DNA of 6,029 bases from Anaerolineaceae bacterium (GTDB lineage: Bacteria; Chloroflexota; Anaerolineae; Anaerolineales; Anaerolineaceae). Positions 3,322 through 5,981 of the stretch are shown in pieces. The translations under genes were made by a program, and so were the position numbers. Position 1 is the stretch's first letter. Every line of letters begins with the position of its first letter. Where the stretch lies: positions 1 to 6,029 of the forward strand of contig JAQTMA010000064.1 of the NCBI GenBank assembly GCA_028714615.1. The letters run 5' to 3'. The notes under the pieces were generated by a model that saw nothing but the letters and a program-made list of their open reading frames with translations, had not been told where the DNA came from and did no database searches.

Positions 3322-4827
3322 CTAGAATGAAATAGTCGGCAAGTAGCGCGGAGCCTGTCTCGCCCGGGTGGCCTGTTCGAAGGCGTAGGCCAGGCGCAGC
3401 AGCACCGGCTCGGACCAGGCCGCCCCGAAGAAAGAGATACCCACCGGCAGCCCGTGGATGAAACCCGCCGGCACGGTGATGTGCGGGTAACCGGCCACTG
3501 CAGCCGGCGATGTGCAGCCGCCGTAACCGTAATCCCCGTGGACGTAGTCGATCAACCAGGCCGGTCCGCCCGTTGGGGCGACGAAGGCATCCAGCTTGTG
3601 CTCGGCCATGACCGCGTCGATCCCCTCGCTGCGCGCCAGGCGATGGTTGGTCTCTACCGCCTTCCGGTAAGCCTCGTCGGTCAACGGGCCTTTCTCCTGA
3701 GCCTGGAGCATGCGCTTTTGACCAAAATACGGCATCACCAGTTCGTGGTTCTTTTCATTGAAGGCAATCAATTCTTCCATTGAATGGACGCGGGCGTCAG
3801 GGCCGAGTCTGGACAGGTAGACGTTCAAGTCTGCCTTAAACTCGTAGAGCAGCGCCTCGATTTCGGTCTCGTCCATCGTCTTGACCGAATCGATGTTGGC
3901 CGGGTCGATCAGAACAGCGCCGCCCGCTTTCAATCCATCCAGGCACGCTTCCATCAACGCGTCGACTTCCGGGTGGAAGTCGAAGAAGTTTCGCGCCACG
4001 CCGATGCGCGCACCTTTCAATCCGTCGGGGTCGAGGAACTGGGTGTAATCGGGATAAGCCTTCCTAGCGCTCTGCGCGGTGGCCGCGTCGTGCAGGTCGA
4101 CCTCTGCCATTGCGCCCAGCAAAATGGCCGCATCCCGGACGCAGCGCGCCAGAGGGCCCGCCGTGTCTTGGGAGTGGGCGATCGGTATAATTCCGGAGCG
4201 GCTGATCAAGCCCAGTGTGGGTTTGATGCCAACTACCCCGTTCGTTTGCGCCGGGCAGGTGATCGAACCGTCCGTCTCGGTGCCGACCGCCGCAGCGCAC
4301 AGGCCGGCCGCCACTGCCACCGCTGACCCCGAACTCGAGCCGCACGGGCTGCGGTCCAGCGCGTAGGGATTGTGGGTTTGCCCACCCCGGCTGCTCCAGC
4401 CGCTGTTCGAGTGGTCGGAGCGGAAATTTGCCCACTCGCTCAAGTTGGCTTTCGCCAGCAGGATCGCTCCGGCTTTGCGCAGCTTGGTGACCAGGCCGGC
4501 ATCTTGCGCGGCAATCGAGCCTTCCAGCGCCAAAGACCCGGCAGTGGTCATCATGCGGTCTGCCGTATCAATGTTATCTTTCAGCACGATGGGGATACCA
4601 TGCAGCGGTCCACGCATTTTCCCGGCCTTGCGCTGGCGGTCAAGGCGGGCGGCGATAGCCAGCGCATCGGGGTTGATTTCGATAATGGCATTCAACCCGG
4701 GACCCTGCCGGTCGATCGTCTCGATGCGGTCCAGGTAGGCTTCGACCAGGTTGCGGGAAGTCACCACACCGGAAGAAAGCAGTTCCTGAAGTTCAGAGAT
4801 GGTCCAATCAGGCTGAAATGGGGTCAT
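3322..4827 (-). CDS. Amidase-signature (AS) family amidase
   Basis: This is a predicted cytoplasmic hydrolase of carboxylic-acid or peptide amides, releasing ammonia or an amine. It has 501 residues, normal for a stand-alone AS enzyme, and no signal peptide. The Ser-cisSer-Lys triad is complete: Lys83 in GIPIVLKDNID, cis-Ser164 in the Gly/Ser-rich CGSSSGS loop, and nucleophile Ser188 in GTETDGSITCPA. The 24-residue gap between the two serines is that of the family. The C-terminal GYPHITVPAG and GLPVGISFFG motifs are also typical. It looks closer to peptide amidase and general amidases than to GatA: no gatC or gatB is nearby and the neighbourhood is unrelated to tRNA charging. ATG 4827 is preceded by GGAGAGG at 4837-4843 (9-nt gap), lies inside the 3' end of the OsmC-like gene (20-base overlap), and so is probably translationally coupled to it. 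Family certain, substrate unknown. Confidence 0.93.
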   Translation of the reverse strand: MTPFQPDWTISELQELLSSGVVTSRNLVEAYLDRIETIDRQGPGLNAIIEINPDALAIAARLDRQRKAGKMRGPLHGIPIVLKDNIDTADRMMTTAGSLALEGSIAAQDAGLVTKLRKAGAILLAKANLSEWANFRSDHSNSGWSSRGGQTHNPYALDRSPCGSSSGSAVAVAAGLCAAAVGTETDGSITCPAQTNGVVGIKPTLGLISRSGIIPIAHSQDTAGPLARCVRDAAILLGAMAEVDLHDAATAQSARKAYPDYTQFLDPDGLKGARIGVARNFFDFHPEVDALMEACLDGLKAGGAVLIDPANIDSVKTMDETEIEALLYEFKADLNVYLSRLGPDARVHSMEELIAFNEKNHELVMPYFGQKRMLQAQEKGPLTDEAYRKAVETNHRLARSEGIDAVMAEHKLDAFVAPTGGPAWLIDYVHGDYGYGGCTSPAAVAGYPHITVPAGFIHGLPVGISFFGAAWSEPVLLRLAYAFEQATRARQAPRYLPTISF

Positions 4828-5356
4828 GGCCTAGCGCCTCTCCATTGAGACTTGTCTCAAACGATACGGGCACGGGTTCGCGCAGCGACTGGGCGGCATG
4901 GCAGCCCATTTCTGCGTGCGCCACCAGCTTCTGCACTTGCTCGCAGGGCGAAGGGCTTTTGATCGTCAGCCGGACTGCCACTTGCTGGAATGCGGTCCCC
5001 CGGCTGGGTAAACCATACTTCGCAGAAGAGTCGAAGGTCGCACGCACGTCCGCGTGCACGTCCTCCAGGTCCACATCGAATTCTGGCGCGAACTGCGCCA
5101 CTTGGGAAACCAGTCAAAACACCACCCCTGCCATGAAATGCTCCAGCGGGCTAGGCGCCTGGTCGCTGCCCCCGCGCGAGGGGGGCTCATCGGCGGCAAA
5201 CTGCCAGCGACCGACCCGCCCTTCGATGTAGGCGTCCTTCACCAGGTGAGCCGTAGCGCGCAGAGTCGCCATCCCGTCCCATTCGCCGTTTTCCAGTTTC
5301 TGGCGGGTAGCATCCAGCACTTCTTTACCGTGCTCCAGGTCAACCAGTCCGGGCAT
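4808..5356 (-). CDS. OsmC/Ohr-family peroxidase-like protein, predicted selenoprotein (in-frame TGA = Sec81)
   Basis: This is a predicted cytoplasmic thiol/selenol peroxidase of the OsmC/Ohr superfamily, which reduces organic hydroperoxides with two active-site cysteines. Read through the TGA at 5114-5116 it has 182 residues, usual for the family. The N-terminal beta region runs to about residue 55, then the subfamily signature DEPP...GGSDQAPSPLE (56-72). The helix PLEHFMAGVVF-U follows, with the TGA (Sec81) at the position of the first catalytic cysteine (usual form PLE-x(8)-C). The second cysteine is Cys152 in EMGCHAAQSLREPVPV, 71 residues later. The two halves are in one frame with no frameshift, and the downstream half is undecayed. 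The gene itself ends in TGA, and the three long neighbours have no internal TGA, so UGA is not generally reassigned. ATG 5356 has AAGGAG 6 nt upstream. A nonsense mutation or sequencing error is the main alternative; a SECIS-like hairpin argues for Sec. Confidence 0.8.
5084..5100 (-). promoter_or_regulatory. Candidate bacterial SECIS stem-loop downstream of the TGA
   Basis: In the mRNA, UGGCGC (5100-5095) pairs perfectly with GCGCCA (5089-5084) around the 5-nt loop AGUUC (5094-5090). The loop begins 20 nt after the UGA, inside the roughly 16-37 nt range of bacterial SECIS elements, and has G at its second position as the consensus asks. UUC (5108-5106) can pair with GAA (5083-5081) below a 5-nt bulge, extending the stem. 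The loop recalls AGGUCU of the E. coli fdhF element. The role would be to bind SelB carrying Sec-tRNA. Pairing is seen; function is inferred. Confidence 0.68.
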
Positions 5357-5362
5357 AAGAAT

Positions 5363-5368
5363 CTCCTT
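5363..5368 (-). promoter_or_regulatory. Ribosome binding site of the OsmC-like gene
   Basis: AAGGAG on the minus strand lies 6 nt before ATG 5356. It shows that translation starts well upstream of the in-frame TGA and that the 5' half is a real expressed part of the gene. Confidence 0.8.
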
Positions 5369-5401: not shown

Positions 5402-5486
5402 AGAAAATACCATCCGCTGATTACGCAAATTATCACGAATATTTTGTATTCGTGATAATTTGCGTAATCAGCGGATGGTATTTTCT
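5402..5486. repeat. 85-bp perfect inverted repeat (40-bp arms, 5-nt loop)
   Basis: The arm 5402-5441 is the exact reverse complement of 5447-5486, separated by TTTTG. The arms contain GCAAATTATCACGAATA and ATCAGCGGATGG. The element is AT-richer than the genes around it. It lies 24 bp after the miniprotein stop and directly upstream of the -10 of the osmC-like gene, so it could act as a terminator for the former (a weak T-rich stretch follows) and shape the promoter of the latter. No target-site duplication is visible. Confidence 0.95.
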
Positions 5487-5904: not shown

Positions 5905-5981
5905 GTTCTTGTAGCCCAGGCATCCTTGCCTGGGGTTCCTCCACCAAGAACCCCAGGCAAGGATGCCTGGGCTACAAGAAC
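5905..5981. repeat. Head-to-head pair of palindromic repeats (34-bp perfect arms, 9-nt loop)
   Basis: The arm 5905-5938 is the exact reverse complement of 5948-5981. Each arm is itself a hairpin, CCCAGGC-ATCCTT-GCCTGGG, flanked by GTAG. The element is therefore two inverted copies of one small palindromic unit, an arrangement like the paired REP/BIME elements of other bacteria. It could act as a bidirectional transcription stop for genes beyond the window. The remaining bases to 6029 show no gene. Confidence 0.9.

Follow-up and report, generated by a model that had tools for sequence, protein, structure and literature searches.

An OsmC-like gene of an Anaerolineaceae bacterium with an in-frame TGA very probably read as selenocysteine, and its relatives in Chloroflexota

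Introduction

OsmC-like selenoproteins have been in print since 2005, and that report gives three of them, with the motif UxxT and a SECIS figure (PMC1088965). The bacterial SECIS element is described there as a stem-loop lying just 3' of the TGA codon, with a guanosine in its small apical loop (PMC1088965). The Global Ocean Sampling survey presents an OsmC-like family with UxxT and five sequences (PMC2398784), and an OsmC-like selenoprotein family with the same motif appears also in two further articles (PMC9312934, PMC13188914). One survey's tally for Chloroflexi counts three selenoproteins in three families, with no OsmC protein among those tallied, and a literature search for an OsmC selenoprotein in Chloroflexi found nothing.

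The window analysed here is a stretch of 6,029 nucleotides of contig JAQTMA010000064.1 from an Anaerolineaceae bacterium. A first-pass annotation had proposed that it encodes an OsmC-like protein with selenocysteine (Sec) in place of the catalytic cysteine, and had stated that such a family is not wholly new. The latter statement is borne out by the 2005 report and by the existence of a family model, NF041052. The analysis described below leads to the conclusion that the window gene is, with high probability, a selenoprotein gene of the NF041052 family, in which UGA at codon 81 is decoded as selenocysteine by means of a hairpin in the mRNA.

Structure of the OsmC-like gene

The gene occupies positions 4808-5356 of the minus strand and consists of 182 codons and a stop, with the ATG at 5356-5354 and the terminal TGA at 4810-4808. 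The first-pass annotation had placed these boundaries correctly, leaving the strand unstated. Translation has confirmed its claim that the TGA at codon 81 (5114-5116, minus strand) is the sole in-frame stop, and the PLE-x(8)-U motif and Cys152 (codon 4901-4903, minus strand), a conserved second cysteine presumed to be the resolving residue, are present as it had described. A Shine-Dalgarno-like AAGGAGA at 5362-5368 of the minus strand stands 5' of the ATG, the end of the gene overlaps the start of the next gene by 20 bases (4808-4827), and the base 3' of the Sec-codon TGA is C, again in keeping with the earlier description. This C is shared by 23 of the 30 TGA genes compared below, the window gene included, and the other seven have A.

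Protein family and fold

The read-through product matches Pfam OsmC over residues 63-166 (E-value, 8.5e-17) and NF041052 over residues 31-172 (139.3 bits; E-value, 8.3e-41; positions 3-144 of the 144 in the profile), and both matches span the TGA. The score exceeds the curated cut-off of 95 bits, indicating that the product belongs to the OsmC-related (seleno)protein family NF041052. The same cut-off is passed by the products of two TGA loci from related genomes (L002 and L003), by two database proteins with Trp at the TGA column (P0027 and P0031) and by four Cys homologues (P0002, P0003, P0019 and P0028). An AlphaFold2 model of the window product (pLDDT 94) has the OsmC/Ohr fold, in which both conserved Cys positions are found.

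The first-pass term OsmC/Ohr-type is a loose one: the OsmC_like_Se model is passed, and the product stays far under the thresholds of the Ohr families, scoring 19.7 bits against a cut-off of 240 bits for NF052637 and giving no listing for TIGR03561 at an E-value of 0.001. The catalytic residues of Ohr include an Arg and a Glu. In one pairwise alignment, the columns presumed to hold this Arg and Glu are occupied by Lys-40 and Ser-60 of the window product. Asp-56, Glu-57 and Arg-61 are invariant across 11 aligned rows, and judging from the alignment they could be the replacements for the Ohr Arg and Glu. Cys152 is invariant in two alignments and conserved in at least 90% of the rows of another.

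Homologues at the TGA column

A protein search gave six matches to the single window protein and 243 to a query made of a three-row alignment; from the 120 listed of the latter, 56 homologues (P0002-P0004 and P0008-P0060) were classified by their residue at the TGA column. Twenty-three full-length homologues and one fragment (P0036) carry Cys there, which answers the question, raised in the first-pass annotation, of whether this residue occurs in homologues. Trp is present in six database proteins (P0027 and P0030-P0034), and two homologues are unclassifiable, P0057 being distant and P0045 carrying a deletion. The 56 also include proteins that are halves of the gene product: all seven N-terminal halves stop at residue 80, and among the 17 C-terminal halves the first residue is 82 in 14 and 86 in three. 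As expected of a selenoprotein gene, the in-frame TGA is aligned with a conserved Cys, found in the 23 homologues, and recurs in 29 other genes.

A scan of named-genome contigs with the single protein gave no match, and neither did the viral contigs searched. A tblastn search of plasmids returned 474 records, none of which reaches 60% identity; of the 20 rows listed, 19 are annotated as OsmC family proteins and one record is unannotated.

TGA genes in Chloroflexota genomes

Scanning of named genomes with the alignment has identified six loci, in metagenome-assembled genomes titled Anaerolineaceae bacterium, Anaerolinea sp. or Chloroflexi bacterium. Codon 81 is TGA in five of them (L002-L006) and TGT in the sixth (L001). 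An OsmC match at an E-value of 1e-15 was obtained in 36 of 400 genomes sampled from the same phylum; a single in-frame TGA interrupts the match in 27 of the 36 and is absent from it in the other nine. Loci were retrieved from 25 of the 27 TGA genomes (G110 and G389 lie outside this count), and TGA is at the Sec codon in all 25. The nine matches without TGA comprise a TGC gene (L027 in G299), a gene with an internal deletion around the codon (L049 in G023) and seven low-scoring matches. Since the retrieved locus L023 duplicates L002 and the two were counted as one, the distinct TGA genes number 30, namely the window gene and 29 from Chloroflexota (five from named genomes and 24 more from the 400-genome sample). 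The motif is UxxT in 27 of the 30, and UxxS in the window gene, L002 and L042.

The reading frame is broken elsewhere in three of the 30 genes, before the codon in L006 and soon after it in L040 (G189) and L041 (G221); these breaks and the deletion in L049 may reflect either decay or assembly faults. When 396 genomes of the class of G002 were searched at an E-value of 1e-30, G002 alone gave a match, indicating that the OsmC gene is sporadic in this class.

SECIS-type hairpin

The first-pass annotation had called for a SECIS prediction, and a SECIS-type hairpin that covaries across the relatives was found. The search covered 45 nt past the codon and required a loop of 4-6 bases with a G within its first two bases. 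In the window gene, the hairpin UGGCGC[AGUUC]GCGCCA lies at 5084-5100 of the minus strand with its loop at 5090-5094, so that, as in the published description of bacterial SECIS elements, a stem-loop with a G in a small apical loop lies downstream of the TGA. In 29 of the 30 TGA genes, the best hairpin has its loop beginning 19 nt after the TGA, and the helix beneath is unbroken. In L002, the hairpin GUGGUGC[AGUUU]GCUCCAC is at the same place and has one U-U mismatch in its stem. Other relatives have hairpins such as GGCGA[AGUUU]UCGCC, UGUGC[AGGUU]GCACA and CUUGCUC[GGUU]GAGCGAG, and the helix is thus retained despite base and amino-acid changes.

Covariation was measured in an ungapped alignment of the 30 TGA genes (27 distinct rows), from which the two Cys genes and L023 were excluded. 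In the 27 distinct rows, 87.0% of the cells are paired, compared with 70.5% in shuffles and 30.9 to 55.6% when the pairing is slid, and five of the six hairpin pairs show changes on both sides. The covariation score is 0.400 against 0.131 in shuffles, and none of 500 shuffles reaches the observed score. RNAalifold predicts the same helix without its lowest pair and with one more pair within the loop.

In a control in which synonymous codons were drawn at random 3000 times with the peptide fixed, the window hairpin has a p value of 0.011; the value is 0.05 or less for 18 of the 30 genes and greater for 12. Since an equally good hairpin arises in more than 5% of the draws for these 12 genes, the peptide itself could account for much of the stem. 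Plain folding of 56 nt from the window gives a z-score of +0.63, no better than shuffles, and Rfam gave nothing on the window at gathering scores. The support for the hairpin is its position and covariation, not plain folding.

The natural gene ends were compared in the same way. Four of the 30 genes give no readable end, since the frame is lost soon after the Sec codon in L040 and L041 and the contig ends within L028 and L043. After each of the remaining 26 ends, at most three pairs form at the SECIS position, and a hairpin is absent there. In the window gene, the helix after the terminal TGA (4808-4810, minus strand) has two pairs versus six after the internal TGA.

Selenocysteine machinery in relatives

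The first-pass annotation had also pointed to the genes for selenocysteine synthesis and insertion. All five named TGA genomes (G002-G006) have SelA and SelB above the curated cut-offs, with SelA of G003 in two pieces, and a SelD match over its cut-off. ARAGORN reports a tRNA-SeC (tca) in three of the five (G002, G003 and G005); it found no selC in G004 and G006, where the loci are tRNA-Ser. The named genome with the Cys form, G001, has SelA and SelD, the latter with a TGA; no SelB match exceeds the cut-off, and the locus there is tRNA-Ser only.

In the 400-genome sample, SelB at an E-value of 1e-65 is found in 310 genomes, in 33 of the 36 genomes with an OsmC match and in 25 of the 27 TGA genomes, being missing at this threshold from G392 and G169. 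Since SelB is common in the phylum, its presence in 25 of the 27 adds little, and its distribution is consistent with Sec decoding without being discriminating.

SelD itself contains one in-frame TGA in all six named genomes, G001-G006 (L060-L063, L065 and L066). Among G002-G006, the TGA lies within the above-cut-off match in four, and that of G005 is in a separate piece under the cut-off. Selenophosphate synthetase in these organisms therefore seems to be a selenoprotein too.

Alternative readings of the internal TGA

A single internal stop that one base change could make from TGC or TGT might come from a sequencing error or from a nonsense mutation in a decaying gene, all the more so as some relatives look broken (the deletion in L049 and the frame breaks in L006, L040 and L041). 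However, the 29 other distinct genes have TGA at the same codon, many database proteins are split exactly there, and P0035, a 96% identical C-terminal half from a different contig, has its start past the Sec codon. A covarying hairpin is likewise unexpected under decay, and error or decay is considered very improbable. It is also conceivable that the gene is genuinely split, translation stopping at the TGA and restarting to give two chains that assemble, or that the codon is simply read through with a common amino acid. Restart would be possible in the seven genes with A after the TGA, which read TGAATG, but none of the other 23, the window gene among them, has ATG, GTG or TTG as its next codon. 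In the predicted structure, moreover, such a break would cut a single helix formed by residues 70-89, and a hairpin at a fixed place would be left unexplained, so that this reading too has only a slight probability.

Decoding of TGA as Trp under genetic code 4, which would put Trp at residue 81, draws on the six database proteins with Trp at this column. One of them, P0027, passes the usual C-terminus through another Trp, suggesting, as far as protein sequences alone can indicate, that a code-4 gene caller was used. The natural end is TGA in 16 of the 26 genes with readable ends, indicating that TGA is still a stop in those organisms, and other homologues have Cys at the column. Trp decoding would also give no role to the hairpin or to the Sec machinery of the relatives, and it is the least probable of these readings.

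Proposed mechanism and evolution

Decoding of codon 81 as selenocysteine leads to the following model. The ribosome would meet UGA at codon 81, and the 6-bp hairpin just 3' of it would recruit SelB together with selenocysteyl-tRNA(Sec), thereby placing Sec at the active-site Cys position of the Cys-containing homologues. The resulting 182-residue product would adopt an OsmC/Ohr-type fold. Sec81 would most likely attack a peroxide or a similar oxidised substrate, after which Cys152 may close a selenenylsulfide with Sec81, and a thiol would then reduce it. The frame, the codon, the homology, the covariation of the hairpin, the fold and the Sec machinery of the relatives were obtained by computation; the actual insertion of Sec, the part played by Cys152, and the nature of the substrate and of the reductant are what we infer.

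A midpoint-rooted tree was built from 66 hand-chosen rows, comprising 40 Sec-type (13 of them halves), 20 Cys and six Trp sequences, with L006, L023, L040 and L041 excluded. The labels require seven changes on this tree, compared with a mean of 23.0 when labels are shuffled, indicating that Sec and Cys have been swapped several times, in directions that midpoint rooting does not give. The window product clusters with five halves (96/71, branch not starred), adjoining the Cys protein P0019. With its Sec and Cys forms intermingled on the tree, this small enzyme offers a case in which to follow how Sec is gained and lost.

In the Cys gene L001, with TGT at the codon, a SECIS-like hairpin persists at the corresponding position (L001:10223-10264; p = 0.031), possibly as a relic from before Sec was replaced. 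L027, the other Cys gene with DNA available, has no hairpin. A tentative scenario, more doubtful than probable, is that the Chloroflexota OsmC branch began early as a Sec enzyme and underwent several losses from Sec to Cys, with L001, at the least, retaining a relic hairpin; as the product lies outside the Ohr models, the substrate of its Sec chemistry may be something other than organic hydroperoxides.

Neighbouring genes and other features of the window

The gene downstream of the OsmC-like gene encodes an amidase (3322-4827, minus strand; Pfam Amidase, 6e-100; NF006006, 741 bits against a cut-off of 534), which is 71% identical to one from an Anaerolineales bacterium; taken with the OsmC relatives, this identity makes a Chloroflexota host likely. 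Its ATG (4827-4825) lies within the OsmC-like gene, and the amidase gene is a probable co-transcribed neighbour. The operon with an amidase proposed in the first-pass annotation is confined to the window among the loci compared: a search of 67 loci, most with about 1.5 kb of flank and with the window as positive control, found no relative of the amidase. The neighbours in L001, L002 and L005, named by eye, are genes other than the amidase.

Directly upstream of the OsmC-like gene on its strand, the window has a perfect inverted repeat of 40 nt with its arms 5 nt apart (5402-5486), which may be a terminator or a small mobile hairpin. A second perfect inverted repeat, of 34 nt with its arms 9 nt apart and including CCCAGGCATCCTTGCCTGGG, is found at 5905-5981. 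At 2157-2421, a 35-nt unit occurs in five copies around GAGACGCCCCAGCGGGGCGTCTC within an open reading frame of 680 amino acids (3315-1273, minus strand), and the units are partly translated as SPTVETPRWG repeats. This frame has no Pfam or NCBIfam match at an E-value of 0.001.

Comparison with known systems

The closest described model is NF041052, OsmC_like_Se, and no tested feature separates the window product from it. The Ohr organic hydroperoxide reductases (TIGR03561 and NF052637; for example 6mjn and 1n2f) are different, as the window product is far under their cut-offs. Among solved OsmC-like structures, the identity of the window product is 15-17% to 1lql and 2opl and 28% to 3cje, and 2opl and 3cje have Cys where the window product has Sec when residue 81 is aligned.

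As far as the literature was searched, the window gene, the UxxS motif, the Chloroflexota set and the covariation of the SECIS hairpin are additions to what has been described. With 27 of 400 sampled genomes, this is a clear Chloroflexota set of selenoproteins, the earlier reports giving a few marine sequences (three and five in the surveys cited above). Since database entries split these genes, and some may carry a false Trp, the set should help their annotation. The OsmC-like selenoprotein of the marine surveys (PMC1088965, PMC2398784) belongs to the same Pfam/COG family as the window product, and has in common with it a Sec encoded by an in-frame TGA and a bacterial SECIS element just downstream. 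Set against the surveys by their description of the motif, the marine form has UxxT, like 27 of the 30 genes compared here, whereas the window gene, together with L002 and L042, has UxxS.
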